Assembly: GCA_015068065.1 (NCBI GenBank)
Contig: SVLE01000001.1
Location: forward strand, 67,428-120,567
DNA from: Oscillospiraceae bacterium
Lineage (GTDB): Bacteria > Bacillota > Clostridia > Oscillospirales > Oscillospiraceae
DNA: 53,140 nucleotides
Reading direction: 5' to 3'
Shown here: piece by piece, positions 28,396 to 44,365 of the stretch
Layout: each line of letters opens with the position of its first letter
Numbering within the stretch: the stretch's first letter is position 1
Position numbers and translations under genes: made by a program
Notes under the pieces: generated by a model
What the model was told of the DNA's origin: nothing
Seen by the model: the letters and a program-made list of their open reading frames with translations, nothing else
The model's database searches: none

Positions 28396-29454
28396 TCATC
28401 CCAAGCGCCGCAGCATCTGTTCAGGGTTGTCCGCATATTCCAGTGCCGTCTGTTGGCTGATTTGTCCGCTGTGGTACAGGCTCAGAATGGACTGATCCAT
28501 ACTAAGCATTCCCTCTTCCGCTCCGGAGGCAATGGCTCCGGCGATTTGATGATTTTTACAGTCTCGAATCATGCTGCGTATAGCGCTTGTCATATGCATA
28601 ATTTCAAAGGCGGGCACTCTGTCTCCGTTTACGCCGGGCAGCAGCTGCTGGGATACAATAGTATGCAGCACCGCACTGAGTTGGATACGGATCTGCCCCT
28701 GCTGGTCGGCAGGAAACGCATCGATCACACGATCAATCGTATTTACCGCACCCTTGGTGTGCAGAGTAGCCAGCAGCAGGTGACCGGTCTCCGCTGCCGT
28801 CATAGCGGTGCGGATCGTTTCCAAATCGCGCATTTCACCCAGTTGGATCACATCGGGTGCCTGCCGCAGACAGGCGCGCAGGGCTGACAGGTAGTCCTGG
28901 GTGTCTACCGCGATTTCCCGCTGGCTAACTATACTTTTCTGGTTGCGGTGGAGAAATTCGATGGGATCCTCCAGCGTGATGATGTGACAGGCTCGCTGAC
29001 AGTTGATTCGGTCGATGAGGCAGGCCTGGGTAGTGGATTTGCCGCAGCCGGCCGTTCCGGTGACCAGTACCATACCGTTGGTCAAGTTGGCAAGAGACAT
29101 GACTGACTCAGGGATGCCCAACTGCTTCCAGTCCGGAATGGAAAAGGCCACGACGCGAACCACTGCGGCACAGGACCCTCGCTGGCGGTAAGTGTTTACG
29201 CGAAAGCGGGCAAGTCCGGGTACGGAGAAAGAAAAATCATCGTCCCCGGAACTCAGATAATCAGCCATATCCCGCTGGGCCAGGTCATAGATCCCGAGGA
29301 TAAGGGCTTCTCCCTGCGCAGGCATGATTTTTTCGTCTCCAAGACAGAGCAATTGTCCATCCTGTTTGACACTCACCGGTGCACCGGGAACCACAAACAG
29401 ATCTGAGGCCCCCATCTGAACTGCGCGGGAAAGATATTCCATCAAAGCCGACAT
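28396..29454 (-). CDS. pilT: PilT-family type IV pilus ATPase
   Basis: This hexameric secretion ATPase normally powers pilus retraction. The 352-aa protein has an N-terminal PAS-like domain (1-100), Walker A GTAGCGKST at 133-141, the Asp box TLEDPIEFLHRN, Walker B APDVIQLGEMRD, the His box TGHLLLATLHT, and AIRSMIRDCK, a variant of the PilT AIRNLIRE retraction motif. It is the last gene of a seven-gene minus-strand operon. No PilB extension ATPase is in the window, so PilT may act on pili assembled by proteins encoded elsewhere. Confidence 0.93.
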   Translation of the reverse strand: MSALMEYLSRAVQMGASDLFVVPGAPVSVKQDGQLLCLGDEKIMPAQGEALILGIYDLAQRDMADYLSSGDDDFSFSVPGLARFRVNTYRQRGSCAAVVRVVAFSIPDWKQLGIPESVMSLANLTNGMVLVTGTAGCGKSTTQACLIDRINCQRACHIITLEDPIEFLHRNQKSIVSQREIAVDTQDYLSALRACLRQAPDVIQLGEMRDLETIRTAMTAAETGHLLLATLHTKGAVNTIDRVIDAFPADQQGQIRIQLSAVLHTIVSQQLLPGVNGDRVPAFEIMHMTSAIRSMIRDCKNHQIAGAIASGAEEGMLSMDQSILSLYHSGQISQQTALEYADNPEQMLRRLG

Positions 29455-29466
29455 GGCCGTCCCTCC

Positions 29467-29868
29467 TTATTTTCCGCCCCAGACCGTGATCCGGTCCTCG
29501 GCCTGCCAGATCCCGGCGGGCACCGTCTGCCAGCGCAGGATACGATAATCCGCACCCTGCACCGCTACCTCGACCGTTAACATCTGGGTGTCTCCCACAG
29601 CACAGCTGTACTGCAGGATCGAACCCTGACCTGTTACTCCCTCCGGCATTTCTCCCGAGCGCAGCGCAGCGAGGAGCTCCTCTGCCCGCCGGTCTGCGGC
29701 GTAATAATCCTGTACAGCCTGCTCCGCCCGATGCCCCAGCCGTGCCCCGGCCTGTGCGGTGGATACTGTCAGCAGGGCAAACACCGTCAGGCAGAGCACA
29801 CCGAAAATGGTCAGCAGGGAACTGAGGCCCACCACCGGGCTTCCACCTGTCCGGAAACGATCACCCAT
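29467..29868 (-). CDS. single-pass membrane protein of the pilin-like operon
   Basis: This is an unrecognised 133-aa protein. It has a short polar start (MGDRFRTGGSPVVG), one hydrophobic helix (SLLTIFGVLCLTVFALLTVS, about residues 16-36), a predicted helical stretch and a beta-rich C-terminal domain. The layout is that of a pseudopilin, but there is no Glu at position 5 of the helix and no standard prepilin peptidase site. It overlaps the preceding gene by 8 bases and ends 12 bases before pilT. A minor pilin-like subunit is the best guess. Confidence 0.65.
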   Translation of the reverse strand: MGDRFRTGGSPVVGLSSLLTIFGVLCLTVFALLTVSTAQAGARLGHRAEQAVQDYYAADRRAEELLAALRSGEMPEGVTGQGSILQYSCAVGDTQMLTVEVAVQGADYRILRWQTVPAGIWQAEDRITVWGGK

Positions 29869-30259
29869 GGTTCTCCACCTCCTGCCAGTTCACATCCAGT
29901 TGTGCCAACGGTGCTTCTCCCGCACCATAGACCCGAATTCGTGCTGAACCCAGAGTGGTATAAGCTGTTGGAAGTCGGCTGACCTCCAAACGATATTCTC
30001 CGGGTGGATCGCACGGCTCCCATACCGCATCGTAAAACATGGTTTCAGTCTGGTCAACGGATTCGGGCCGTTCCTTCTCGATGCTTTTCAATCTCTGCGC
30101 CACATTCTGCGCCAACAGCAGTGCCCCGTGCCGCTGTGCCTGATCCCGGACACTTTGTTCCGCCCAGACAAACATGCGCAGGCACAACGCGCCTGCCAGG
30201 GCAAAGACCAGGACCATGACCAGCAGTTCCATTATCAGCAAAGAAGTTCGGTTTTTCAT
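29861..30259 (-). CDS. pseudopilin-like membrane protein
   Basis: The 132-aa protein has a charged start followed by SLLIMELLVMVLVFALAGALC, a hydrophobic helix with a Glu where prepilins carry it, but Ser/Thr instead of the usual Gly before the cleavage site. The rest is a small beta-rich domain with helix WAEQSVRDQAQRHGALLLAQ. It resembles minor type II/IV pseudopilins. It overlaps its upstream neighbour by 4 bases and its downstream neighbour by 8, so the set is tightly coupled. Confidence 0.65.
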   Translation of the reverse strand: MKNRTSLLIMELLVMVLVFALAGALCLRMFVWAEQSVRDQAQRHGALLLAQNVAQRLKSIEKERPESVDQTETMFYDAVWEPCDPPGEYRLEVSRLPTAYTTLGSARIRVYGAGEAPLAQLDVNWQEVENHG

Positions 30260-30744
30260 ACCGCCTCATCCTCGTATACGGGCAGGTGCAGCCATACCCA
30301 GCTGGTCTGCCCCCCGCACAGGAACTCTACCCGAAGCAGATCATTTTCCCGGCTTAGGGTCATCTGGTCGGCGGGAACAATCGTTTCGCCGTCTTGAGGG
30401 TCAAATATTCCGTCTTCTTCGGCAAACAATTGCATCAGCCATCCGTCATAACAGTAGATCCGTGTCAGGTAAACTTCGCCCTGTATCTCCTGCCGGATAG
30501 TCAAAGCATCTCCATTCCCGAAAGACTCCACAGTGATCGCCCCGGACACAGGTGCCTGTCGGACGCTGGTGGCAATAAACTGGGTTCGGATGCGGTCGTC
30601 ACCGGTCTGCCGACCCCGCTGTATCATCATTTGGTACAGGTTTGCTCCGGTCAAAAGGACAAGCAGGATACTCGCCCCGAATACGCCCAGCAAAAGAAGG
30701 GCCGCAAGTCCGGATACGGACCGTTTTGTTGTATTTTCTTTCAT
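30256..30744 (-). CDS. DUF4860-like membrane protein of the pilin-like operon
   Basis: The 162-aa protein has an N-terminal helix (SGLAALLLLGVFGASILLVL, about residues 10-32) and an extracytoplasmic beta-rich domain with YLTRIYCYDGWLMQLF and DGETIVPADQM. The pattern resembles DUF4860 proteins, which occur in clostridial pilT/pilC clusters. No canonical prepilin cleavage site is visible. It overlaps both neighbours by 4 bases. A structural or assembly role in the appendage is inferred from context only. Confidence 0.65.
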   Translation of the reverse strand: MKENTTKRSVSGLAALLLLGVFGASILLVLLTGANLYQMMIQRGRQTGDDRIRTQFIATSVRQAPVSGAITVESFGNGDALTIRQEIQGEVYLTRIYCYDGWLMQLFAEEDGIFDPQDGETIVPADQMTLSRENDLLRVEFLCGGQTSWVWLHLPVYEDEAV

Positions 30745-31064
30745 TTCGACTTTACCAAAACTGTGATGTCAGGCATCAGGTTATCCGCAAATGCTTCATA
30801 AAACACCCGATAGTGGGCCTCATCGATCTGCACACCACTGTACCGGGTCAGCTCCTCCAGCGTGGGGGGGTAGACCCCCTGCTCGGCATAATAAGCCGCC
30901 GCAGCCCGGCGCACCGCCTGTTCCAACTGTCGCTGTCCCTCCTGCGTACGCCCGGTGTCCATGTTGCGCAAGGCCGTAAAAAAGCCCAACAGGATCGTAC
31001 CCGCCAACAATATATATATCCCTATGTGAAGGGCACGCTGGAGTATGATTTTTCCTTTTTTCAT
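30741..31064 (-). CDS. short pilin-like protein
   Basis: The 107-aa protein has one hydrophobic helix (HIGIYILLAGTILLGFFTAL, about 13-32) followed by an amphipathic helix and AAAAYYAEQGVYPPTLEELT, a pattern very common just after the N-terminal helix of type IV pilins. A Gly-Phe-Thr-Leu-type cleavage site is missing, so processing would be non-standard. It starts 6 bases after pilC and overlaps the next gene by 4. It may be the main subunit, given the pilin-like core, or a minor one. Confidence 0.65.
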   Translation of the reverse strand: MKKGKIILQRALHIGIYILLAGTILLGFFTALRNMDTGRTQEGQRQLEQAVRRAAAAYYAEQGVYPPTLEELTRYSGVQIDEAHYRVFYEAFADNLMPDITVLVKSK

Positions 31065-31070
31065 CGGTCC

Positions 31071-32117
31071 TCACCCAATTCCGGACATGATGTGGAGCAG
31101 AGGCAGCATTACACTTAACAGGATTGCCCCCACCAACACAGATGTGATCAGTACCAGTGTGGGCTCAATGCCGTTTATGCGCATTTCCAGCGCCTGCTCA
31201 CTTTCCTCCAGCATCTGACCGGCCAGCTGTTCCATTACAGTCTCTGCGCAGCCGCTGCGCACCCCGGCCTCCAGCAGGCGACACCGCGCCTTGGACATCA
31301 GCCCACTCTCGCGCAGGGCAGCTGCAAGAGGAGCGCCCTGCTGTATACGTTTCAGGCATTGTTCGCACCGATTCAAAAACCGGGGATTCTCCTGCCCAAG
31401 GGCTTGGGCCAGCTGTACCGACTCCTGTTCGGTCAATCCGCTGCTCAGTCCCAGCGACAGCACCTGTACAAAGCGTGCGGCATTGATTTGTCCAAACACG
31501 CCGCAGTCGTCCCGCATTCTGCGCCAGCGGGTCATCAGCCATTCCCGAAACCGGGGCCAGGCTACCGCCAGCGTCAGCACACTTACAACCAGCGCCAACA
31601 GAGTACATAGTACCGGGAGAGCCCGGCGCAGCGCATTTCCCAACAAGAGCAGTCCACCGGCAAAGCCGGTCAGTCCGCTGCCCAGCCGGGCATATACATC
31701 ATCAAAAACCGGCAGCACCCATACCAGCAGTACCGCCACCACCGCAAACATGACCAGCAGCAGCATGGAGGGATACAGCAGGGCCGCATACAGATGCTCA
31801 TCCATCCGGGCACGTGCCCGATAATGGTCTGTCAGTGCCTGAAGGGAATGTTCTGTTTTTCCTGTCCGTTGTCCGGCCTCCATCAGCGCACACAGATAGG
31901 CGGGGAAGCACCCCATCTCCCGAAAAACCTGTTCCAGCGATGCACCCTCGTCCGCCCGCTGCGCCATTTGGTGCAGTACTGCGGCCAGCCTGGGATCCTC
32001 TTCGTCCCGGGCCATCAGATCCAACGCATCCCCCGCCGAAATCCCGGCATGAAACAGATTGGTCAGAGACTGACAGACTGCCCCCAGTTCTTCGTTTGAC
32101 AGCTTCCGTTTTGTCAT
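31071..32117 (-). CDS. pilC: type II secretion/type IV pilus inner-membrane protein PilC (GspF family)
   Basis: This polytopic platform protein transmits ATPase motion to the growing pilus. The 348-aa protein has two repeated GspF domains: residues about 10-125, with AGISAGDALDLMARDEEDPR and FREMGCFPAYLCALMEAGQR, and about 205-320, with GLSSGLTEQESVQLAQ and GLMSKARCRLLEAGVRSG. Membrane helices lie near residues 130-170 and at the C-terminus. The ATG at 32117 follows GGGAGG; the long upstream open frame overlaps the transglutaminase gene and is a shadow. Confidence 0.9.
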   Translation of the reverse strand: MTKRKLSNEELGAVCQSLTNLFHAGISAGDALDLMARDEEDPRLAAVLHQMAQRADEGASLEQVFREMGCFPAYLCALMEAGQRTGKTEHSLQALTDHYRARARMDEHLYAALLYPSMLLLVMFAVVAVLLVWVLPVFDDVYARLGSGLTGFAGGLLLLGNALRRALPVLCTLLALVVSVLTLAVAWPRFREWLMTRWRRMRDDCGVFGQINAARFVQVLSLGLSSGLTEQESVQLAQALGQENPRFLNRCEQCLKRIQQGAPLAAALRESGLMSKARCRLLEAGVRSGCAETVMEQLAGQMLEESEQALEMRINGIEPTLVLITSVLVGAILLSVMLPLLHIMSGIG

Positions 32118-32157
32118 AAAGCCTCCCGCACGCTGCCGTATGTTCAGGCAGCGCTCA

Positions 32158-33138
32158 TCAGTAAAAATACTTTGCGTGGTAGTTTTCGCCGTCTCCGATA
32201 TAGGCCATGATCTGTGCGCTTTGTCCACCGGAGGAGGCAAAGGTGGGGTCCATGCGCTTCCAGCTGTGGCCGTCAAAGAAAATCGCGCCGTCCACCCAGC
32301 CGGTCTGCTCCGACCAGACACTGATCCATGCATGATAGGCCGGGCCGGCAAAGCCCACCACCAGTTTGCAGGGCACACCCTGACTGCGCAGCATCCCGGT
32401 CATCAAAGCCGCATAATCAAAACAGATCCCACTCTTTTTCTCCAGGACCCAATCCAGATCGGGCAGATAGCCGCTTTTCACGGTGGCAGCCAGTTCCCGG
32501 TCATAAGTTAGTCCACGGACCACATAATCATAGACGATCTCTACTTTTTTTAGCGGGTCAGTCTCTTCTCCAATCAGCTGCGCCGCCAGTGCCACCGTTT
32601 GGGGGGCGTGGTCGAAGTTTACATATTGGTTGGAATGCAGGAAGGGAGCAAACTCATCCGTCAGTTCCACCCGCGTAGTCAAAGAAAGTACTGCGGCGTA
32701 ACTGCTGCCCTGTACGTTCTTGTAGATGGTAATGCGGTAGTCACCATTGCCGTCCGACAGGGGGAACGCCGCCCATTCGCCGGCAGTCAGATTGTAGGTG
32801 TAGGTTGTTCCCGCCCCTTTGACCTGTGCTTTGAGCCGCAGGTCGGTGGACCGGGTATAGCAGACCATCACATACCCCTGCGCAGTGTTGGAATAGTCGA
32901 TAACCGCCTGTTCGTTCTGTTTGACCCGCACTCCGGAAGCTACCGCCGTCACACGGGTGGCCAGCGCGGCAGGGCTCTGTGCCAGTGCCACCGCCTCGTC
33001 CTCCAACACCACGACACCTTCTGTCCGTGCCTGTTCGGACAGATAGGGGTTCGCTTGCTCAGACGGGGCACAGCTCGTCAGCATCAGCAGGCACGCCAAT
33101 CCGTACAGCGCACGCTTCACTATTTGTTTTCTGGACAT
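32158..33138 (-). CDS. secreted transglutaminase-like lipoprotein
   Basis: The 326-aa protein has a lipoprotein signal peptide with lipobox LTSC (residues about 20-23) and a C-terminal transglutaminase-like fold with the Cys-His-Asp triad: Cys in KSGICFDYAALMTGMLRSQG, His in AYHAWISVW and Asp in RMDPTF. Bacterial relatives act as proteases or cross-linkers on surface proteins. It is the first gene of the pilin-like operon, 40 bases before pilC, so it may process or cross-link the appendage; that link is inference. Confidence 0.88.
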   Translation of the reverse strand: MSRKQIVKRALYGLACLLMLTSCAPSEQANPYLSEQARTEGVVVLEDEAVALAQSPAALATRVTAVASGVRVKQNEQAVIDYSNTAQGYVMVCYTRSTDLRLKAQVKGAGTTYTYNLTAGEWAAFPLSDGNGDYRITIYKNVQGSSYAAVLSLTTRVELTDEFAPFLHSNQYVNFDHAPQTVALAAQLIGEETDPLKKVEIVYDYVVRGLTYDRELAATVKSGYLPDLDWVLEKKSGICFDYAALMTGMLRSQGVPCKLVVGFAGPAYHAWISVWSEQTGWVDGAIFFDGHSWKRMDPTFASSGGQSAQIMAYIGDGENYHAKYFY

Positions 33139-33320: not shown

Positions 33321-34520
33321 ATGTCGAACCTGCACATAACCATGCTGGGCAAGTTTTCTATCCGCAAAGAGGGGAATTTTATAGACGATTCCAGCAATCG
33401 TATGCGCAAGGTATGGCTGGTGCTTGCCTATCTTGTTTTTTCCCGCACCACCCGCGTAACACAGGACAATCTGCTGCAGCTGCTATCTTCCGGCAACAGC
33501 GAAGGTGATCCCGGCAGCCGCATCAAGGCGATGCTCTACCGGGCGCGAACCCTGCTGGATCAATTGGGCGAACATGTCGGTCACGACCTGATCCTCTTCA
33601 AAAACGGCTGCTACAGTTGGAACACCGAGCTGCCCGTCACAGTAGATGTGGAGGAATTTGACCGCCTGTGCTCTTCCGCTGCACAGCAGACGGACGAGGA
33701 TGCCAGACTGGATCTGTATCAGCAGGCACTGGCCCTGTATGCGGGCGATTTTCTTCCCAAGCTCTCCTCTGAGCCGTGGGTCATGCCCATCAGCACCTAT
33801 TACCACCAGATGTATCTGGATGCAGTTCAGAATACACTGGAACTGCTGGAGCGGCGAAATCAGTGGATACCGGCTGTTGCCCTTTGCCGACGAGCTTTGT
33901 TGGTGGAAGCCTACAGCGAGCCCCTTTATCAGCATCTGATGCGCGGGTTGATCGCACTGGAGGATCGCGCCGGTGCACTCCACGCTTACGAAGAAATGAG
34001 CGAACTGCTCTTTGCCAACTTCGGCGTTATGCCCTCAGACGAAAGCAGGCGGCTCTATCGTGATGCCGCCCGTGAAGCCGGCAGTGTCGCCATTACCACC
34101 GGAACGCTGCGTGATATGCTGAAAGAACCGGCTGGTGCCAAAGGTGCCCTGCTGTGCGAATACGACTTTTTCCGTCTGCTCTATCAGGTGCAGGCCCGGG
34201 CCATCATTCGCAGCGGGGATGTAGTTCACATCGCTCTGCTTTCGGTACACGGACGAGGCAAAAAAGACCTTCCTCGCCGCAGTCTGGACACCGCAATGGA
34301 TAATTTGCAGGATGTGATCGTCCATGGCCTGCGTCAAGGCGATATCGTGACCAAGTGCAGCGTATCCCAGTTCGTTATCATGTTGCCTCATGCCAACTAT
34401 GAAAACAGTTGTGCCGTTTGTGAGCGGATTCTCCGTTCTTTCGGACGGCAATACCCCCACTCTCCGGCCAGCATCACGTTTAGAGTCCAGCCTCTGGAAC
34501 CAAATCTTCCCACTGCGTAA
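33321..34520 (+). CDS. SARP/BTAD transcriptional regulator with degenerate GGDEF-like C-terminal domain
   Basis: The 399-aa protein has an N-terminal OmpR-type winged helix (1-95: LHITMLGKFSIRKEGNFID, RMRKVWLVLAYLVF, RIKAMLYRARTLLDQ), a bacterial transcriptional activation domain of TPR-like helices (about 105-250: YQQALALYAGDFLP, RALLVEAYSEPLYQHLMRGL) and a C-terminal domain (about 270-390) whose pattern follows GGDEF cyclases, but with SVSQF in place of GGDEF before VIMLPHANYE. It should not make c-di-GMP but might bind a nucleotide. It is flanked by the pil operon (divergent) and the sortase gene, whose 3' end it overlaps by 41 bases. Confidence 0.82.
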   Translation: MSNLHITMLGKFSIRKEGNFIDDSSNRMRKVWLVLAYLVFSRTTRVTQDNLLQLLSSGNSEGDPGSRIKAMLYRARTLLDQLGEHVGHDLILFKNGCYSWNTELPVTVDVEEFDRLCSSAAQQTDEDARLDLYQQALALYAGDFLPKLSSEPWVMPISTYYHQMYLDAVQNTLELLERRNQWIPAVALCRRALLVEAYSEPLYQHLMRGLIALEDRAGALHAYEEMSELLFANFGVMPSDESRRLYRDAAREAGSVAITTGTLRDMLKEPAGAKGALLCEYDFFRLLYQVQARAIIRSGDVVHIALLSVHGRGKKDLPRRSLDTAMDNLQDVIVHGLRQGDIVTKCSVSQFVIMLPHANYENSCAVCERILRSFGRQYPHSPASITFRVQPLEPNLPTA

Positions 34521-35322
34521 ATATTCCGGTCAGTGCCCCCTGCACTACCCAGCGGTGGTCATATCCGTTTCCGGTGCAGGTGGACAGGGTGATCACACTG
34601 TCCTCCACCGTAGGAACAAGGTCGGTTTCAATCGCCGAGCGTTCTGCACTGTAATCCAAAAACGCCTGCTTCTTTTCCGGAGTGTTTACATCCAGTCGAT
34701 AGGTATACCCACGTACTTCTGCCTCAAAGGCGGCAAAGATATCATAGCGGTGTATACCCTTGTCATTCACAATGTAAATGCAGGGATATTCCTGCCAATG
34801 GCTCTGTGTTCGGTATTGCCTGAGCGAACCGAACATGGAGCCGTTTTTCATGTTATGACCGTAAATGATTGTATTGAAGCCACTGAGATCCGGTTGCATT
34901 TTGCATTCCAGAAACACCGAGCCCGCCGCATTACGCTTGCCCTGCCAGGTGTGGTTGAGGTAATATTGATTGTCCTCCCCCTGCAGGATGGGGTAGTCCA
35001 ACTGCGTGCCGGGAATAGCAATCCAACCTAAAACATCTTCGTTGGCCTGCTGCAGCTGGCCCAAATCTACACTCCACAGGTACTGTGCGTTCTCTTCCAG
35101 TGGGCGGAACTCCAGCTGAGCGGGCGATTCCGGAATCAGAGGCACTTCCGGCTCGGGCAATCCTTCCACAGAGCTTTGTTCCAGACCGGCTGCACTTTGG
35201 GCCTGCAGGGTGCTTTGCTGCGCGTGCCAATAGTCCATCCCCTGACGGGCAAGGAGCGCAGTACTGCCACAAAAAGCTATGGTCAACATAAGGACCGCGG
35301 CCTTTCGTATTATTTTCTTCAT
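34480..35322 (-). CDS. srtB: class B sortase
   Basis: This membrane transpeptidase joins surface proteins to peptidoglycan. The 280-aa protein has an N-terminal signal anchor (about 7-25), then the sortase barrel with DVLGWIAIPGTQLDYPILQG, the catalytic His in TIIYGHNMKNGSMFGSLRQY, the catalytic Cys in ITLSTCTGNGYDHRW and the Arg in HRWVVQG. The helix insertions and the TLSTC motif place it in class B. The large adhesin with a VPKTGD sorting signal is the next gene upstream and is the obvious substrate. Its 3' end overlaps the SARP gene tail-to-tail. Confidence 0.94.
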   Translation of the reverse strand: MKKIIRKAAVLMLTIAFCGSTALLARQGMDYWHAQQSTLQAQSAAGLEQSSVEGLPEPEVPLIPESPAQLEFRPLEENAQYLWSVDLGQLQQANEDVLGWIAIPGTQLDYPILQGEDNQYYLNHTWQGKRNAAGSVFLECKMQPDLSGFNTIIYGHNMKNGSMFGSLRQYRTQSHWQEYPCIYIVNDKGIHRYDIFAAFEAEVRGYTYRLDVNTPEKKQAFLDYSAERSAIETDLVPTVEDSVITLSTCTGNGYDHRWVVQGALTGIFTQWEDLVPEAGL

Positions 35323-35498: not shown

Positions 35499-38400
35499 TC
35501 AGTTGCTTTGCCAGCGCTTCTTGTCCTCGGTGCCCAGCACAACCAGAGCCGCGCCGGACAGGATGGCCATCAGCAAATATACTGCCAGCTTGTCGCCAGT
35601 CTTGGGTACGTCGGCCAGGGGAACCTCGTCCTCGATAATTTCAACGGGCTGCTCGGGCAGTTCGGGGATCTCCACCAGAGGCACGTCTTCCTCAGGAATC
35701 TCAATGGGCTCCTCGGGGAGCTCGGGCTCAACGGGCTCTTCCGGAGTCACAGGAACATCAGGAACCACGGGCTCGTCGGGAACAACAGGGGTCACAGGAG
35801 TAACGGGGGTCACAGGAGTAACGGGGGTCACAGGAGTAACGGGGGTCACAGGAGTGACAGGGGGACGGCCGGGAACTCCGGGAGTAACGTTTCTATACCA
35901 GGAACCGACCAGCTTCACGGCCTTAGCGGGCATGGTAAACGCACCCTGCTGCACCTCGACATCCTCGGTTCTCCAACCGGCGAAGGTATAGCCTGCCATG
36001 GCGGGCTTATCGGCCACACTCACCGCAGCGCCGGCGGAATACCGGGCCGTGGCGGGAACGACAGGAGCATGCTGGGGAACAGTGCCGGCGTACTCGTAGC
36101 TCACAGTGTAGGTCACAGGAGCGGAGCCGCGCTTTTCATACTTGTTGGTGATCTCCACCAGGCCGGAGTCATTGGCAGTAACGGTGGCGTACTCGTTCCA
36201 GTACAGCTCGTCGTAAACCACCTTGGTTCCCTCCCAGGTGTAGCCGCTGATCACGAAATTGTCTTCCTCAACGGTGTAGCGACCGACCTCCACCTCCATG
36301 GTGTAGGTGCCGTCGGTAAACTCGCCGTAGGTGACGATGCCGGCCACCTGAGTGCCGTTGCTGATCTGCTTGTAGACGATAAATGCCACATCATCGGGCA
36401 GAACATCGCCGTTCTTCAGGCCTTCAGTAGTCTTGGTAATGACCAAAGTGCCGGTCTTGGGAGGAGGCGGTGCGTTCTTGGTCCAGGAGCCTCTCAGCAC
36501 CACGTGAGTCTCAGGCATTTCGAACTTGCCGTCCACAATCTGGGCTTCCTCGGTAGTCCAGCCGGAGAAAGTGTAGTTTCTGAGATTGGGAGCATCCGCC
36601 ACGGTCACCTGGGTGCCGGGGCCGTACTGAGCGCTGCCGGGAACAGCGGGGGCGCCCTCAGGCACTTCACCGGTGTAAGCGTAAGTCACATTGAACAGAA
36701 TGGGAGGAGGAACTTCCTTCTTGGTCCAGGAACCGGAGACAACCACGTCCTCAGCGGGCATCTGGAAATCTTCCTTGTCCCAGCCGGAGAAGATATAGCC
36801 GTTCAGGTAAGGGGCATCGGCCACGTTAACCTGCTCGCCGGCCTGATACGCAACGGTGGCAGGCAGCTCGGGAGCGCCCTCGGGAATCTCGCCGGTGTAC
36901 TGATAGGTTACGGAATACTTGGGAATAGCGGTCCAGGAACCGGTAATGACCACAGCCTCAGCGGGCATCTCAAAGTTTTCCTTATTCCAGCCAGAGAAGG
37001 TGTAGCCGTCCAGCGCGGGAGCATCGGCCACGATAACCTCGGTACCAGCTTCGTATTCCACGGTGGCGGGCAATTGGGGAGCGCCTTCAGGAACCTCACC
37101 GGTGTATTCATAGCTCACGGGATACTTGGGGTCGGGATTTTTGGTCCAGGAACCGGTAATGACCACGGCCTCGGCGGGCATCTCAAAGTTTTCCTTGTCC
37201 CAGCCGGAGAAGGTGTAGCCTGCCAGCACAGGAGCGTCGACCACGGTGACCTGCTCGCCGGCCATATACTGCTGGGCAGCAGGAACAGAGGGAGCGCCCT
37301 CGGGAATTTCGCCGGTGTACTCGTAAGACACAGGGTATCTGGGAATGGCGGTCCAGGAGCCGGTGATGATCACGTTTTCGGCGGGCATCTCAAAGTTTTC
37401 CTTGTCCCAGCCGGAGAAGATATAGCCATTCAGGTAAGGGGCATCGGCCACGGTGACCTGCTCTCCAGCCATATACTGCTGAGCAGCAGGAACAGAGGGA
37501 GCGCCCTCGGGAATTTCGCCGGTATACTCATAGTTCACGGAATACTTGGGAATGGCCGTCCAGGAACCGGTGATGATCACGTCTTCGGCGGGCATCTCAA
37601 AGTTTTCCTTGTCCCAGCCGGAGAAGGTGTAGCCTGCCAGTTCGGGAGCATCTGCCACGGTGACCGCAGTGCCTTCTTCGTACTGTACAGTCTCGGGCAG
37701 CTCGGGAGCACCCTCGGGAACTTCACCGGTGTACTGATAAACAACATTGTACAGGTCGGGGGGGATCACCGTCCAGGAACCGGAGATGACCACATCTTCA
37801 GCGGGCATCTCAAAATTTTCCTTGTCCCAGCCGGAGAAGATATAGCCTTCCAGATAGGCCGCGGCAGCCACGGTAACGGCAGCACCGGCAGTGTACTCAA
37901 CGGTGGCAGGCAGCGCAGGCGCGCCCTCAGGGACTTCGCCGGTGTACTGATAGGTTACAGAATACTTGGGAATGGCGCTCCAGGTGCCGGTGATAACCAC
38001 AGCCTCGGCGGGCATCTGGAAATCTTCCTTGTCCCAGCCGGAGAAAGTATAGCCTTCCAGTTCGGGATCATCGGCCACAACAACTTCAGTGCCGTAGGTG
38101 TACTCGCCGGCAGCGGGCAGCTGGGGCGCGCCCTCGGGAACTTCGCCGGTGTACTCGTAGGTGACGGGATAGAGAATGGCAGTGTAGACATAGGTCACGG
38201 TGGTGTGACCAGTGATGGTACCGCTGACGGGGTCGCTGTCCTCGGCCAGTGCCTTGAACTCATAATGCTCAATATCCTTCTGCTCGGTCACATACTCCTT
38301 GCCGTACAGGATACCGGTCTGCGCGATTTGCTCGGCAATAGCCACGCCCTGCTCATCCACATAGTTGACAGTCAGGTCAAACCGGGGCAGAATGCCGCGG

Positions 38401-39842
38401 ATATCAGGAACGTTGAACTCAGCCTCAACAGGGGTCTCATCCTCTCCCACTGTGTAGTCCAGAGTGGTGGTGCCGTTTGCGGAGGTCAGGATGGTGTAAC
38501 CCCCGTAGGCGGGGTCAGACTCAATAGCGGAGGGGTCGATTTCCACCTGATAGGTGATGGTGTAGGCGGTGATGCCGTCGGCAACGACAGGGGTAAAGCT
38601 GCTTAGATCCCAAGTTTCGGAGGTGCCGTTGTAAGCGGAGGTCACGCTCACCATGCTCACACCCTCGCCCATGGGGTCGGTGATAACGGTGGGAACGGTT
38701 TGGACAGTAACCACGTTGCCGGCCTCACCGATCAGATCCACGCTCAGCGTGTCAGCGGAGCTGACGATGGTACGGTCGAAGTCGGACAGCACACCGTATC
38801 TGTCGGTGTAGTTATAAGCCACGGCGATGGTGGCGGCGGAGATGTCGGCCAGAATGTCGGCCACATCGTCGTAGTCGACGGCATCGGTCTGAGAGCCGGT
38901 GTCACTGCCGCCGTAGGTCACCTTGCTGGTGGAATCGTTGTCTACATCACCAACACGGGCAGTGGGGGCGCCATCACTGAACAGGATCAGAGACTGATTA
39001 TCCGCGGGGATGCCGGTCAAAGCCGCAGTATCGTTGAGCAAGTTACGCCCCAGAACCAGACCGGCTTCCATGTTGGTGCCGCCTCTGGTCAGGTAGGTGC
39101 TGCCCTGATAGGCGCCGTTTCCGGTGCTCAGAGAATTGACCAGGCTCTTCACGCTGCTCAGGTTGGCGGCATTGGTTACGTCGATCCAATCCTGAATGGC
39201 CACGGCATCAGTACCGAACACGATAACACTGACCAGCCGCTTGTCACCCTCACCGACATTCTCAACGTAGCTGTCAAGGAAGTCGGATACGGCGGACTGC
39301 AACTGCTGAAGGTGGGTGCCGGGCTCCCTGTACTGACAGGCGGGCTCGCCCTGCACGTGGAAGCTGCGCCGCTTGTCGCAGTTGACACAGCGGTTGCCGC
39401 CGAAGAAGCTCCTCTCGTAGGAGTTTCCGCTGCCATCGGGACACAGATTGCTGGTGCCCTTGTGGTCTGCGTGGTTCTCGCTCTTGCCGCAGGTAAGGCA
39501 TCCATCGGGAGCCTCGTCCATGGAGTTGGACACGTCCAGCACCAGGGCGACTGCACCGTGGGTGGCGCCGTCCAGCTGGATGCTGGTGTCCTTGGTCTCC
39601 ACAGTCAGAGTGATGTCAAATACATTCTCGGTGCCGGTGGCAGTCGCTTGCTTGGACAGGTGGATCTCCCAATCCTCAGCAGTACCCACTGTACCGTCCT
39701 GCTTGTAGTAGGTGTCCTCGTAATTTCTGACCAGCTCGGGGGTCTCTCCCGCGGCCAGCACGCTGATGTTGATCATGCTGATGATCATCACGATGCTCAT
39801 CAGCAGAGCCAGAGCTCTCTTGCCATAATTCTTCTTTGCCAT
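35499..39842 (-). CDS. wall-anchored VWA/InlB-repeat adhesin
   Basis: This is a 1447-aa surface protein. Features in order: signal peptide (1-31); VWA domain from about residue 95 with MIDAS DVSNS at 103-107, interrupted right after it by a Cys-rich insert (Cys 115, 118, 134, 152, 155, 169); seven similar InlB-type repeats of about 69 aa (YEYTGEVPEGAP to MPAEAVVITGSW) and one diverged copy; a SpaA-like segment (TGTLVITKTTEGLKNGD); a ninth repeat; a PVT/Pro/Glu wall-spanning stretch; sorting signal VPKTGD, a membrane helix and a basic tail. GAAAGGAGA precedes the ATG. A c-di-GMP-I riboswitch lies immediately upstream, and the sortase gene follows. It is probably an adhesin; its ligand is unknown. 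Confidence 0.93.
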   Translation of the reverse strand: MAKKNYGKRALALLMSIVMIISMINISVLAAGETPELVRNYEDTYYKQDGTVGTAEDWEIHLSKQATATGTENVFDITLTVETKDTSIQLDGATHGAVALVLDVSNSMDEAPDGCLTCGKSENHADHKGTSNLCPDGSGNSYERSFFGGNRCVNCDKRRSFHVQGEPACQYREPGTHLQQLQSAVSDFLDSYVENVGEGDKRLVSVIVFGTDAVAIQDWIDVTNAANLSSVKSLVNSLSTGNGAYQGSTYLTRGGTNMEAGLVLGRNLLNDTAALTGIPADNQSLILFSDGAPTARVGDVDNDSTSKVTYGGSDTGSQTDAVDYDDVADILADISAATIAVAYNYTDRYGVLSDFDRTIVSSADTLSVDLIGEAGNVVTVQTVPTVITDPMGEGVSMVSVTSAYNGTSETWDLSSFTPVVADGITAYTITYQVEIDPSAIESDPAYGGYTILTSANGTTTLDYTVGEDETPVEAEFNVPDIRGILPRFDLTVNYVDEQGVAIAEQIAQTGILYGKEYVTEQKDIEHYEFKALAEDSDPVSGTITGHTTVTYVYTAILYPVTYEYTGEVPEGAPQLPAAGEYTYGTEVVVADDPELEGYTFSGWDKEDFQMPAEAVVITGTWSAIPKYSVTYQYTGEVPEGAPALPATVEYTAGAAVTVAAAAYLEGYIFSGWDKENFEMPAEDVVISGSWTVIPPDLYNVVYQYTGEVPEGAPELPETVQYEEGTAVTVADAPELAGYTFSGWDKENFEMPAEDVIITGSWTAIPKYSVNYEYTGEIPEGAPSVPAAQQYMAGEQVTVADAPYLNGYIFSGWDKENFEMPAENVIITGSWTAIPRYPVSYEYTGEIPEGAPSVPAAQQYMAGEQVTVVDAPVLAGYTFSGWDKENFEMPAEAVVITGSWTKNPDPKYPVSYEYTGEVPEGAPQLPATVEYEAGTEVIVADAPALDGYTFSGWNKENFEMPAEAVVITGSWTAIPKYSVTYQYTGEIPEGAPELPATVAYQAGEQVNVADAPYLNGYIFSGWDKEDFQMPAEDVVVSGSWTKKEVPPPILFNVTYAYTGEVPEGAPAVPGSAQYGPGTQVTVADAPNLRNYTFSGWTTEEAQIVDGKFEMPETHVVLRGSWTKNAPPPPKTGTLVITKTTEGLKNGDVLPDDVAFIVYKQISNGTQVAGIVTYGEFTDGTYTMEVEVGRYTVEEDNFVISGYTWEGTKVVYDELYWNEYATVTANDSGLVEITNKYEKRGSAPVTYTVSYEYAGTVPQHAPVVPATARYSAGAAVSVADKPAMAGYTFAGWRTEDVEVQQGAFTMPAKAVKLVGSWYRNVTPGVPGRPPVTPVTPVTPVTPVTPVTPVTPVTPVVPDEPVVPDVPVTPEEPVEPELPEEPIEIPEEDVPLVEIPELPEQPVEIIEDEVPLADVPKTGDKLAVYLLMAILSGAALVVLGTEDKKRWQSN
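35797..35850 (-). repeat. 18-bp tandem repeat (PVT wall-spanning segment)
   Basis: Three perfect 18-base units plus partial units at both ends encode Pro-Val-Thr repeats in the wall-spanning region. Such arrays change copy number by slippage, which would alter the length of the spacer. Confidence 0.8.
36470..38180 (-). repeat. InlB-type repeat array in the adhesin gene
   Basis: Seven close copies of about 207 bases and one diverged copy. Repeats 4 and 5 share a long almost identical stretch (around 37256-37330 and 37466-37540), so unequal recombination could change the repeat number. A ninth, diverged copy lies outside at about 35900-36110. Confidence 0.85.
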
Positions 39843-39871
39843 TATTTCGTTCTCCTTTCAGTGGGTGAGCG

Positions 39872-39966
39872 AAATATCGGCGGCCGCGCCGGCATAGCCC
39901 TTCGGCCTTAGCCCGCTTGCTTTGCGTCCCGCCCTTTCGGTGCGGTTTGCCACTTGTCGAATATTT
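39872..39966 (-). promoter_or_regulatory. c-di-GMP-I (GEMM-I) riboswitch controlling the adhesin
   Basis: On the minus strand the order of conserved parts is that of GEMM-I: a P1 strand (AAATATTCG), GGCAAACC, a stem capped by a GAAA tetraloop, GGGACGCAAAGC, then a second stem holding the 11-nt tetraloop receptor as CTAAG opposite TATG, and the closing P1 strand CGATATTT, which pairs with the first with one bulge. It ends about 30 bases before the adhesin ATG and begins 25 bases after the stop of the small upstream gene. No terminator hairpin is obvious, so control of translation or stability is likely. Confidence 0.9.
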
Positions 39967-39990
39967 CCCGTTTTCCTTTTCTGTTATTTT

Positions 39991-40410
39991 TTAAGATGCT
40001 TTTTCTTTTGCCTGAATTGCGCTGTCCATCAACAGGAGCAGCTCCAGCACACTGCGGAAGCTTTGTTCCCGCCGCCCCTCCAGCCATGTAATGCTGCCCT
40101 GCCAGCTGGTGTGCTGCCGGAACAGGATCCGAATGGCGAAGGTGGCTGTTGCTCCATCCGGAGGTGGCTGTGTGGGTGGCCCCGTGGCGTGCTCAGGAGG
40201 GGGGGCGAACATTCGGGTCGCGGTGAAGGAGGCCGGAAAATTCATTCGATCCAGCATCTGCTCCATTTCAATCAGAAACTGCGTCCCGCTTTGAAACGTT
40301 TTTTCTGTGTTCAGATATGTATTGTACAGTCGCCCTGCCAGAATCGCATTTTCATAGGAGTCGATGCAGACCGTTGTTGTGCGGTACTCTTCGCCCCAAA
40401 TTCGTTCCAT
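39991..40410 (-). CDS. small protein of unknown function upstream of the riboswitch
   Basis: I do not recognise this 139-aa protein. It has no signal peptide or membrane helix. It opens MERIWGEEYRTTTVCIDSYE, has a Pro-rich centre (PPPEHATGPPTQPPPDG), a stretch FRQHTSWQGSITWLEGRREQ and a helix SFRSVLELLLLMDSAI. It ends 25 bases before the c-di-GMP riboswitch, and its promoter region carries the 37-nt element shared with srtB, so it is probably co-transcribed with the adhesin. The start is uncertain: ATG 40410 is shown, but a TTG at 40416 fits the AAGGAGGGG spacing better. Confidence 0.7.
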   Translation of the reverse strand: MERIWGEEYRTTTVCIDSYENAILAGRLYNTYLNTEKTFQSGTQFLIEMEQMLDRMNFPASFTATRMFAPPPEHATGPPTQPPPDGATATFAIRILFRQHTSWQGSITWLEGRREQSFRSVLELLLLMDSAIQAKEKAS

Positions 40411-40462
40411 GCTCAATAGCACCCCTCCTTTCTGAGTGTGTTTTACCTGTTGTGCTATATAT

Positions 40463-40499
40463 ATATCATCCTCCGGTTACGCGAGTGGTTATATTTTGC
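40463..40499 (-). promoter_or_regulatory. conserved 37-nt promoter/operator element, adhesin-operon copy
   Basis: This is the partner of 35364-35400. Here the direct repeat is exact, TAACC N7 TAACC, followed by GG, ATGATAT and an AT-run that can serve as -10, with the same 7-base spacing. Confidence 0.7.
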
Positions 40500-40570
40500 A
40501 TTTCTTTGTTCATTTTTTGGTTTTCTTTTTTATAACCGGAAGGTGAGCCCGGTTTTTCTTGCGCTTGCGC

Positions 40571-40599
40571 TTGCGTCCGTCCGTTTCCTTTGCTAATAT
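40571..40599 (+). promoter_or_regulatory. promoter of the GGDEF/HD-GYP gene
   Basis: TTGCGT (40571-40576), 17 bases, TAATAT (40594-40599), 35 bases before the ATG. Confidence 0.65.
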
Positions 40600-40633
40600 G
40601 TTAATGTATAACACCCAGATAAGGGGGATGACT

Positions 40634-43600
40634 ATGGTTTCCCGGTTAAAAGATACCTTGTTGCTGTTGGGCAGCGCGGGCGGCGAACGTGCGCAGCTGC
40701 GCGAGATATTTCGTTCCGCTTACGACCTGCTGGAAGCAGAAAACCTCACACAGGCCCATATGCTGCTGGATCAGAACAGCAGTTGTATTGCTGCGGTTTT
40801 AGCCGACCTTCCCCTTTCCGTTCCGGAGGATGTCCGGCGTTTATCCTCTTTCTGTCACCACGGAACACCAAATGAAATCCCTCTGATTCTGTTTGTTCCC
40901 TCTGACGGGGCCGGAACTCAGGAAGAACTGGCCTTTTCTCTTGGCGCAACCGAGGTGGTGCTGAGCCCTTATACCTCTTCCGTTGTTCAGCGACGGGTAC
41001 AGACCATCATTGACTTGTTTCTGCATCGGTGGAATCTGGAACGGATGGTAGACGAACAAAGCCGGACCATCCGCAACACCAATCAGGTCATGCTGGATGC
41101 CCTGTCTGCCATCATTGAGCACCGCAATACGGAGTCAGGCAATCACGTTTTGCGTATTCGCCGTTTCACCGCTATTCTGCTGGAAGAGGTGGCCGCTTTC
41201 TGCCCGGAATACAAACTGACTGCTGAGAACATCCGAATTATCTCCAATGCCGCTGCCCTGCACGATATTGGCAAAATCTCCATTCCAGACTCCATCCTGA
41301 ACAAGCCAGACCGACTTACAGCCGAGGAATATGAGGTCATTAAGACCCACACCACAGTCGGCGGTCAACTGGTGGAAAATCTCAGCGGTATGGGCGACAC
41401 GGAGTATCTGCGTTACGCCTATAACATTGCCCGATACCACCATGAACGCTGGGACGGCAAGGGCTATCCCGCAGGACTGAAAGGAGAAGAGATTCCCATC
41501 TGCGCGCAGGCGGTTGGTCTGGCCGATGCGTTCGATGCGCTGACCTCTCCTCGGGTATACAAGCCTGCCATTGCTTATGATCGGGCCATTAACATGATCG
41601 TGAATGGTGAGTGCGGCCTGTTCTCTCCCAAATTACTGGAGTGCTTCAAGCGTGTACGCACCCAACTGGTCGGTTTGGCACACCAGTATGCAGACGGATA
41701 CTCTCCAAAGTCTGACCAGATCACCCTGCCTTTGCCCGGTCCGGAATGGAAAACCCATCGACTTGATTCCCTGCAGCTGTCTCAGGTCAAATACCAGACG
41801 CTGCTTCATCACATGAATGACACGGTGCTGGAGCTGGATCTGGACAACGAATTGTACCATGTAGTTTATAATCCCAATCCGGATCTGGACTCGCTGGTGC
41901 CTGCGGCCCCCTTTAGTCAAATCATGCAGCATCTGCGGCAGGGCGTGATCCATCCGGAGGATATGCCTGTGGCCAATCAGATCCAACGCACCATTGCGGA
42001 GGATTTTTTCCGTCTGAATCTGCGTCGGCTTTCCTTCCCTATGCGCATTTTCTCTCCATCCACCGGAGAATATCAGGCCTATGAACTGATTTTTCTGCGG
42101 GTCAACACCGGAAATGCTGAGCAGAGGATCCTGCTTGCCATTTGGCATAAGACTGCGAAAACCCTGCCGGCAAAAGAAGCATTTCTTCACACAGACCTGT
42201 ACTCATCTCCGGCCCTGTATGGACTGGTCAGCACTGCCCTGCGCTGCCACTGCGACGATTTGTGTACCATCGATGCCGGTGCTGATACCCTGTTTTCCCT
42301 GACCGGATACACCCATCAGGAAATCACTGCGCAGTTTGCTTCGTCCCTGCTTAACCTTGTGCTTCCGGAGGATCGCCCTGCGTTTCTGGCAGCGGCAAAG
42401 GAGCATCTCCAGGCCGGTGGGCGCTCGGACATTCAGTTCCGGCTGATGCGCAAAGACGAAGATCCTCTTTGGGTATTGGCCAGAGGCCGTCTCTATCTGG
42501 AATCAGACGGCAGGGAATACCTTTATCTGGCCATTCGGGACAATTCCCAGCTGCGCCAGACCATCGATCGTCTGCAGGATGAGATCCAACGTCATCAGGC
42601 GCTTACGGAACAGAGTGAAGGCGTCATCTTCGATCTGGATCTGAAAACCGATTCGCTTACCTGCTCCGCCCGCTGGCAGGAAATGTTTGGCTACGCACCT
42701 CTGACCCGGAATTTCCTGGCCTCCATATCCCAGACCAGCCACTTCCATCCGGACGATCTGCCTATCCTCCACTCCTGGGCGGATGCCCTGCGCCGCGGGG
42801 AAGATGCTCCTTCTTACCAGGAGGTTCGCATTGTGAATAAGGACGGAAAGTACGTTTGGTGTCGCATCCACGCCCGACTGCAGCAAAATAATCATATTGT
42901 CGGCATCGTCTATGACGTGGACGAGTTCAAGCGGACCACATTGGCCCTGAAAGAGCGGGCAGAGCGCGATGCCCTGACCAAGCTGCTTAACAAGGCTTCC
43001 ACACAGCAACTGGTTTCCGAGCACCTGAATGCTCAGGAGAGCGGTCAGCTTTCTGCGCTGCTCATTCTGGATTTGGATAACTTCAAAACAATCAACGACA
43101 GCCGCGGACACCTTTACGGCGATGCCGTTCTGTCCCAGCTGGGCAGTCGGCTGCGCAGTCTGTTCCGTGCCAACGACATCATTGGTCGTATCGGCGGCGA
43201 CGAATTCCTTGTTTTTCTCAAGAATCTGCCCGATGCGGAAGTTGTAAAGGACCGCTGCTCCCTGCTTCTGAACTCTTTGGGGGAACTGCTGAACCGACTG
43301 GCCCCTGACCTGAATGTGTCCTGTTCCATCGGTGCCGCCATTGCCCCCACCCACGCCTCCAACTATGCCGATTTGTTCCACCGGGCGGACGAGGCGCTGT
43401 ACCAAGCAAAAAAGCGGGGTAAAAGCCGCTACCGCATCTATAACCGCCGAGATAAGTACGATGCCCTGTTGGAAAACACCACGTACGTCAACTCCCGCAT
43501 TGACTCCGATGAACAGCCCAATATTGCGGACAACTCCTTTATTCGCTTTGTTTTCCACGCCCTGTATGAGAGCGATGATATCGAGTCCACCGTGGATGAG

Positions 43601-44365
43601 ATTCTGTCCCAGATCGGCAGGCAGTTCAATGTCAGCCGCGCCTACATCTTTGAAAACAACGAGGACAACACCACCTGCAGCAATACCTTTGAATGGTGTG
43701 ATGAGGGAATCACTCCGCAAAAAGATATTCTGCAGAATATCAGCTATATCACCGACATCCCGGGCTGGCCGGATGTTTATGACGAACACGGGTTGCTCTA
43801 CTGTTCCGACGTATCGGAACTGGCTCCCACCGCCCGTGCCATTCTGGAGCCGCAGGGGATCAAGAGTATGCTGCACTGCGCCATTATGGATAACGGTGTG
43901 TTCCGGGGCTATATCGGTTTTGACGACTGCGCTGCCCACCGCCTGTGGACACAGGAGCAAATCTCCCTGCTTCGATTCCTGTCTGAAGTTCTTGCCCTGT
44001 TCCTGTTGAAGAAGCGGACGCAGGACAAGGTGATCGAACAGGTCACCAATCTGCAAAACGTATTGGATAATCAGGACGCGTGGGTGTATGTGATTGACCC
44101 GGACACTTACCAGCTCCAGTTCCTGAACAAAAAGCTCCGCTCTCTTGCGCCAAGCAGTCGTGCTGGGATGACATGCTATTCCGCTTTTATGGATCGCCAG
44201 TCTCCATGTCCCGATTGCCCTCTCGCCACAGCAGACCACTCCTGCGTCATTGAGAACTCCAAGCTGGGGGTGCGTGTGCAGGCAAAATCTACACAGATTT
44301 TGTGGAACGGCAAGACCGAACAGTTGATTACCTGCTATGATGTGAACAGGGCACAAAGCAGCTGA
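40634..44365 (+). CDS. GGDEF + HD-GYP c-di-GMP turnover protein with PAS and GAF domains
   Basis: The 1243-aa cytoplasmic protein has a receiver-like N-terminus (about 5-130), HD-GYP (about 145-345; LHDIGKISIPDSIL and YHHERWDGKGYPAGLKGEEI), three PAS-type segments (about 375-770), GGDEF (about 775-935) with intact RIGGDEF and an inhibitory I-site RAND exactly 5 residues upstream, a GAF domain (about 955-1120) and a final PAS-like domain with a Cys-rich patch (CPDCPL). It could both make and degrade c-di-GMP, and feedback inhibition by product is likely. It is divergent from the c-di-GMP-controlled adhesin operon. The ATG at 40634 follows AAGGGGG. Confidence 0.93.
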   Translation: MVSRLKDTLLLLGSAGGERAQLREIFRSAYDLLEAENLTQAHMLLDQNSSCIAAVLADLPLSVPEDVRRLSSFCHHGTPNEIPLILFVPSDGAGTQEELAFSLGATEVVLSPYTSSVVQRRVQTIIDLFLHRWNLERMVDEQSRTIRNTNQVMLDALSAIIEHRNTESGNHVLRIRRFTAILLEEVAAFCPEYKLTAENIRIISNAAALHDIGKISIPDSILNKPDRLTAEEYEVIKTHTTVGGQLVENLSGMGDTEYLRYAYNIARYHHERWDGKGYPAGLKGEEIPICAQAVGLADAFDALTSPRVYKPAIAYDRAINMIVNGECGLFSPKLLECFKRVRTQLVGLAHQYADGYSPKSDQITLPLPGPEWKTHRLDSLQLSQVKYQTLLHHMNDTVLELDLDNELYHVVYNPNPDLDSLVPAAPFSQIMQHLRQGVIHPEDMPVANQIQRTIAEDFFRLNLRRLSFPMRIFSPSTGEYQAYELIFLRVNTGNAEQRILLAIWHKTAKTLPAKEAFLHTDLYSSPALYGLVSTALRCHCDDLCTIDAGADTLFSLTGYTHQEITAQFASSLLNLVLPEDRPAFLAAAKEHLQAGGRSDIQFRLMRKDEDPLWVLARGRLYLESDGREYLYLAIRDNSQLRQTIDRLQDEIQRHQALTEQSEGVIFDLDLKTDSLTCSARWQEMFGYAPLTRNFLASISQTSHFHPDDLPILHSWADALRRGEDAPSYQEVRIVNKDGKYVWCRIHARLQQNNHIVGIVYDVDEFKRTTLALKERAERDALTKLLNKASTQQLVSEHLNAQESGQLSALLILDLDNFKTINDSRGHLYGDAVLSQLGSRLRSLFRANDIIGRIGGDEFLVFLKNLPDAEVVKDRCSLLLNSLGELLNRLAPDLNVSCSIGAAIAPTHASNYADLFHRADEALYQAKKRGKSRYRIYNRRDKYDALLENTTYVNSRIDSDEQPNIADNSFIRFVFHALYESDDIESTVDEILSQIGRQFNVSRAYIFENNEDNTTCSNTFEWCDEGITPQKDILQNISYITDIPGWPDVYDEHGLLYCSDVSELAPTARAILEPQGIKSMLHCAIMDNGVFRGYIGFDDCAAHRLWTQEQISLLRFLSEVLALFLLKKRTQDKVIEQVTNLQNVLDNQDAWVYVIDPDTYQLQFLNKKLRSLAPSSRAGMTCYSAFMDRQSPCPDCPLATADHSCVIENSKLGVRVQAKSTQILWNGKTEQLITCYDVNRAQSS

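Follow-up and report, generated by a model that had tools for sequence, protein, structure and literature searches.

A c-di-GMP-I riboswitch probably turns on a large sortase-anchored surface protein in small-genome Oscillospiraceae

The analyzed stretch of DNA from an Oscillospiraceae bacterium (53,140 nucleotides, hereafter the window) contains on its minus strand a gene (35499..39842) encoding a secreted adhesin-like protein of 1447 aa. The protein has a signal peptide, a VWA region with the MIDAS-type motif DVSNS that is kept in four genomes, a GBS104-like Ig domain, a MucBP domain, List-Bact repeats, and a C-terminal LPXTG-type anchor, VPKTG, recognized by the NCBIfam model LPXTG_double (NF033073; 54.9 bits, cut-off 48). 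The VWA_2 score is 26.8 bits, with a curated cut-off of 27. The MIDAS-type residues, the GBS104-like Ig domain and the anchor together suggest that the protein is an adhesin. Its gene is followed by that of a class B sortase (34480..35322, minus strand; PF04203), which scores above the cut-off of the NCBIfam equivalog TIGR03064 (169.9 bits, cut-off 153.75). The original prediction of a sortase-anchored VWA adhesin with a sortase next to it is thus supported, with a VWA_2 score just under the cut-off. In addition, T2SSE, T2SSF and DUF4860 genes (28396..32378, minus strand) form a cluster that resembles type II secretion/type IV pilus loci, at a distance of a few kb from the genes described here.

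On the other side of the adhesin gene, a plus-strand gene (40634..44365) encodes an HD-GYP - PAS - GGDEF - GAF protein, the sole PF00990 match found in the genome of the window. The GGDEF, RxxD (I-site-like), HDIGK and HHExxDGxGYP motifs are kept in all five compared GGDEF proteins, so that both active-site motifs, GGDEF and HD...HHExxDGxGYP, are present in 5/5 and enzymatic activity is predicted for them. This gene had been described as divergent from the adhesin locus, and it is; its directly divergent partner, however, is not the adhesin gene but an uncharacterised, previously overlooked ORF of 143 aa (ORF143; 39991..40422, minus strand) that separates the riboswitch discussed below from the divergent intergenic region. 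The intergenic region contains an element conserved in five aligned genomes (40455..40497, minus strand), TATAACC-N6-GTAACC, in which a TAACC direct repeat with a spacing of about one helical turn is followed by a TATA-rich stretch; this element is perhaps the promoter/operator of the ORF143-riboswitch-adhesin transcript. As for ORF143 itself, a conserved partner gene with the motif ASWQGxxxWxE...E.SFRSxLEL, searches of Pfam at E 0.001 (chance-level rows only) and of NCBIfam at E 1 gave no match. Structure prediction (pLDDT 80.7) yielded a fold with no convincing resemblance to known ones.

A search with Rfam models found a c-di-GMP-I (GEMM-I) aptamer (RF01051) at 39961..39876 of the minus strand with a score of 64.6 bits (gathering score 35; E 1.9e-10 for the whole window). 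The match spans model positions 1-87 of 87, was recovered again by a local search, and is the sole above-threshold Rfam match within the window and the single RF01051 match found in its genome (1.68 Mb, 87.6% complete). The core motifs are legible in the sequence and alignment, namely, GGCAAACC, the GAAA tetraloop, GGGACGCAAAGC and the CTAAG/TATG tetraloop receptor. The closing helix P1 is formed by GAAATATTCG (39967..39958) with CGATATTTC (39879..39871), nine pairs with one bulged U. The adhesin ATG (39842) follows 28 nt after the P1 edge and 33 nt after the Rfam edge. The element in front of the adhesin gene is therefore confirmed as a GEMM-I riboswitch aptamer, as had been claimed for 39872..39966 with a distance of about 30 bases to the ATG and with a significant family score as the test; the turnover enzyme, sensor RNA, adhesin and sortase, also said to be neighbours, are all present at the locus. 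By analogy with its family, the ligand of the aptamer would be c-di-GMP.

The original prediction did not include a mechanism for this control. The unconstrained fold of the leader contains a hairpin over the ribosome site and lacks P1. In this hairpin, the strand GCCGAUAUUUCGCUC pairs with the strand running from GGAGA to AAUGGC, which covers the Shine-Dalgarno (SD) sequence, the start codon and the codon of Ala-2. Both structures use one switching strand, GCCGATATTTCGCTC (39867..39881, minus strand), as the 3' strand of P1 in the bound state (GAAAUA-U-UCG with CGAUAUUUC) and as the anti-SD/anti-AUG strand in the free state; P1 and the SD/AUG helix are therefore mutually exclusive. The partners in the free state are the SD stretch AAAGGAGA (39851..39858, minus strand), in which the GG and GA of GGAGA are paired in the free ensemble, and CGAAATAATGGC (39838..39849, minus strand; helices 6 and 7), which comprises the start codon (39842..39840) and the Ala-2 codon. 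Forcing P1 costs 4.3 kcal/mol above the free ensemble and raises the mean unpaired probability of GGAGA and AUG from about 0.27 to about 0.60 (G, G, A, G, A: 0.43, 0.48, 0.89, 0.59, 0.76; A, U, G: 0.43, 0.35, 0.88), the A of AUG being more paired with P1 forced (0.43) than in the free form (1.00). The ON state would therefore be just partly open. When folding of the growing chain (155 nt) was modeled, the probability of P1 was 0.91-0.92 until nt 130, 0.49 at nt 136 and 0.00 from nt 142, and this loss coincides with the emergence of the AUG strand CGAAAUAAUGG.

The conservation of these helices was analyzed in related leaders. An RF01051 search of 119 related genomes found GEMM-I in 41 of them; the 120 matches outside the genome of the window (four below the cut-off) fall into 87 clusters (62 single, 18 double, 6 triple and 1 quadruple). 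A model, R1, was built on 13 leaders sharing the platform of the window and had matches in 101 of 400 family genomes. The leader set was composed of 66 of the 69 R1 matches of at least 76.7 bits among the matches listed, the window included (G738, G800 and G509 were left out), and four further leaders from the 119-genome search (G028, G032, G051 and G083); of the resulting 70, G234 had no usable start codon, which left 69. One leader with a cut 5' end was dropped from the pairing tests (68 leaders).

The switch helix covaries across these 68 platform leaders. The mean energy of the native switch pairing was -9.36 kcal/mol vs. -7.25 kcal/mol with permuted partners (z -9.7, 0/20,000), and 36 leaders dereplicated at 75% identity gave z -6.4 (0/20,000). 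For P1, the values were z -4.0 (1/20,000) and z -3.5 (3/20,000), respectively, with six of the 68 P1 5' strands retained in the statistic although they had been anchored to an incorrect core-motif copy; a control region gave z 0.2 and 0.3 in the same permutation test. Since strands are shared among relatives, the native switch partner ranked first or joint first in just 7 of 68 rows. The helix is present in the MFE structure of 64/68 expression platforms and absent in four; in G665_C45_801, the X:Y pairing amounts to a mere -0.5 kcal/mol. Among 53 R1-aligned leaders (50 loci given), two-sided changes occur in one or more sequences at 8 of the 9 pairs of the main switch helix. Pairing holds in 95.4% of the cells of the whole structure (83.5% after shuffling) and 177 cells are changed on both sides (47.8 in shuffles), in an alignment (A4) that was fitted with R1 to the tested structure; both the permutations and the alignment test leave shared ancestry in. 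A compensatory change is seen in the relative L210 from yak cecum, in which UAUUUUG/CAAAAUA replaces UAUUUCG/CGAAAUA.

GEMM-I aptamers were also found in tandem, two to four in a row, before large secreted proteins, at G022:C2:127023-127403 (L084) and in other genomes of the genus. These arrays have a second type of platform, with a CUUUGCA/UGCAAAG hairpin directly ahead of AAAGGAAG. In the 25 tandem clusters, every first copy (25 of 25) has G in front of GCAAA, at what is taken as position 20; the last copies have 12 G, 6 A and 4 C, with 3 unreadable, and the gene-proximal aptamer may therefore differ in ligand preference or affinity. Three further GEMM-I leaders (G036:C103:14396, G045:C3:50541 and G042:C212:19218) precede what we take to be VTC-domain proteins. 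The G045 leader has a hairpin and a U tract, so that the genus may also use transcriptional platforms.

An ORF of at least 40 aa could be read behind 66 of the 69 leaders with the platform of the window, and by a simple hydrophobicity rule all 66 proteins have a secretory N-terminus. Alanine occurs within residues 2-5 in 65 of these 66 proteins vs. 2 of 14 behind tandem-type platforms (those of the 25 tandem clusters that fit the tandem-platform pattern). In the lone exception, G714 (MTKK), the switching strand has GUCA opposite UGAC at the start codon. The motif [LIVF]PxT[GSA] was found in the last 70 residues of 22 of 37 complete ORFs; eleven of the other 15 have near variants (APKTG, APQTG, APATG, PAKTG, and VPKTD in G028 and G051) and four (G055_C12, two of G006, and G714) have no anchor variant. 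The sister adhesins of G028 and G051 (L149 and L150) end in VPKTD, and those of the window and G032 in VPKTG; anchoring in the former two is therefore less sure.

The GGDEF gene, ORF143, the riboswitch and the adhesin gene co-occur in four other genomes, in three of them with the sortase gene. The order in the sister genomes G028, G032 and G051 is GGDEF (divergent), ORF143, riboswitch, adhesin, sortase, BTAD regulator and transglutaminase-like gene, and the N-termini of their adhesins are 69-77% identical to that of the window. The fourth locus, L210, contains the GGDEF, ORF143, riboswitch and adhesin parts; in its 13.4 kb, no match for the sortase, BTAD or transglutaminase proteins was found. 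Homologues of ORF143 are located upstream of 29 of the 69 platform leaders (the upstream stretch is short, 10 to 570 bases, for some of the misses) and upstream of 7 of the 87 GEMM-I clusters, all seven with the platform of the window. In addition, a sequence listed as viral (L262, IMGVR_UViG_3300032167_006209, 2998-4610) carries ORF143, the same riboswitch (142 bits) and the start of a secreted protein with a MIDAS-like motif; the three ORFs tried had no PHROG match, and it may therefore be bacterial DNA.

Taken together, the folding and covariation suggest, with a probability of about 0.8, that the riboswitch is a translational ON switch for the sortase-anchored adhesin. P1 would form while the aptamer is being transcribed, and c-di-GMP, if bound as the family implies, could then lock it, tying up the 3' strand and leaving the ribosome site more accessible. 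With no ligand, the switching strand would pair with GGAGA..CGAAAUAAUGGC and hide the SD sequence, the start codon and the Ala-2 codon, which should reduce translation. The signal itself is presumably set by the divergent HD-GYP/GGDEF protein. The ON direction is read from the anatomy, which is typical of ON switches stabilised by their ligand. The OFF helix also includes the conserved C's at the 3' end of the aptamer. In the Vc2 aptamer, C92 at the 3' end is thought to pair with the ligand. In Bc2, C89 is predicted to do so (PMC4933901). Ligand binding and repression would therefore be mutually exclusive.

The mechanism could instead be transcriptional, the ligand altering termination upstream of the adhesin gene, as in the Bacillus thuringiensis Bc2 RNA, a c-di-GMP-I ON switch acting through an anti-terminator on a collagen adhesion protein (PMC4933901); within the genus, the G045 leader, which precedes another kind of gene, folds with a long hairpin that has a U tract at its end. 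No terminator-like site was found in 39700..40800, however, and hence no Bc2-type intrinsic terminator between aptamer and gene, whereas shuffled sequences had 1.8 on average, and the gap of just 28 nt between P1 and the ATG is occupied by the SD sequence. Transcriptional control is therefore unlikely here, although its Rho-dependent form can still be entertained. That c-di-GMP represses the adhesin instead is likewise improbable: most class I riboswitches of Clostridioides difficile acted as OFF switches, one of them before a putative adhesin, but one gene behind a class I riboswitch rose >30-fold in the same species (both PMC6200980). In the leader studied here, the sole conserved alternative helix found is incompatible with P1 and traps the SD sequence and AUG when no ligand is bound, as expected of a translational ON switch.

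It is very improbable that the aptamer is degenerate and, instead of switching, merely shapes the leader. The single copy found in the genome speaks for this, but the window and four relatives have full-length, well-scoring leaders, with compensatory change. An A at position 20 makes some GEMM-I aptamers prefer cGAMP, and this base is present in 14 of the 120 related GEMM-I matches, and in G665_C45_801 and G524_C69_11586 among the leaders with the platform of the window. Sensing of 3',3'-cGAMP (GEMM-Ib type) in place of c-di-GMP is nevertheless highly unlikely for the window, which has G, the first of GGCAAACC, at model position 11, presumably equivalent to aptamer position 20. The presence of GEMM-I in the genus also tracks that of GGDEF, being found in 21 of 48 GGDEF-bearing vs. 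0 of 16 GGDEF-less genomes (Fisher p 6e-4). A translational ON switch responding to c-di-GMP thus stays the preferred reading.

GEMM-I control of adhesins is already known from Bc2-cap and Vc1-gbpA (PMC4933901, PMC4744006). Bc2-cap is, like the element studied here, a c-di-GMP-I ON element upstream of a (collagen) adhesion protein, but it uses a terminator/anti-terminator, whereas in the window no terminator was found and the helix covers the SD sequence, AUG and the Ala-2 codon (PMC4933901). Vc1-gbpA of Vibrio cholerae similarly promotes a secreted colonisation factor; its 5' UTR is 225 nt, in contrast to the 28 nt between P1 and ATG in the window, and its authors detected neither a terminator nor an anti-SD and did not settle on a mechanism (PMC4744006). 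In C. difficile, c-di-GMP likewise exerts ON control of sortase-dependent surface proteins through riboswitches before CD630_28310 and CD630_32460; these, however, are class II, another RNA class, class I being mainly OFF there (PMC6200980). A class II search of 64 genomes of the genus found no match and had no positive-control match either. The triple-tandem riboswitch Bc3-5 (PMC4759541) resembles the tandem arrays of other species of the genus (up to four in a row, G022) and differs from the single aptamer of the window. A search of the open-access literature found no class I ON platform in which the aptamer's own 3' strand sequesters the start and second codons, and no genome with a one-locus c-di-GMP system. 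The new parts are the start-codon-capturing ON platform and the one-locus layout.

In the 64-genome genus set, the genomes of the window (G000), G028, G032 and G051 (1.7-1.9 Mb; completeness 87.6, 96, 96 and 98%) each have exactly one GGDEF match, at the adhesin locus, and with stricter filters one GEMM-I match each; PilZ and EAL had no match in these four. The T2SSE ATPase of the window had no second domain such as MshEN. The four genomes thus apparently have a one-locus c-di-GMP circuit, by a count that covers GGDEF, GEMM-I, PilZ and EAL.

It is tempting to go further and propose, tentatively and at somewhat less than even odds, that in small-genome Oscillospiraceae, the named members of which come from ruminant cecum, c-di-GMP is a private single-purpose signal wiring one locus (bifunctional GGDEF/HD-GYP enzyme, riboswitch, adhesin and sortase), and that the ON/OFF helix restricts which residue the adhesin can have at its second position. 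Most c-di-GMP networks comprise numerous enzymes and receptors, and cause and effect in them are therefore hard to trace. If one enzyme feeds one RNA receptor for one adhesin, such a genome would offer a natural circuit of minimal size that allows direct measurement of dose, threshold and specificity. The class of leaders described here would also be a list of surface proteins of uncultured gut bacteria that are probably controlled by c-di-GMP, predicted from RNA alone.
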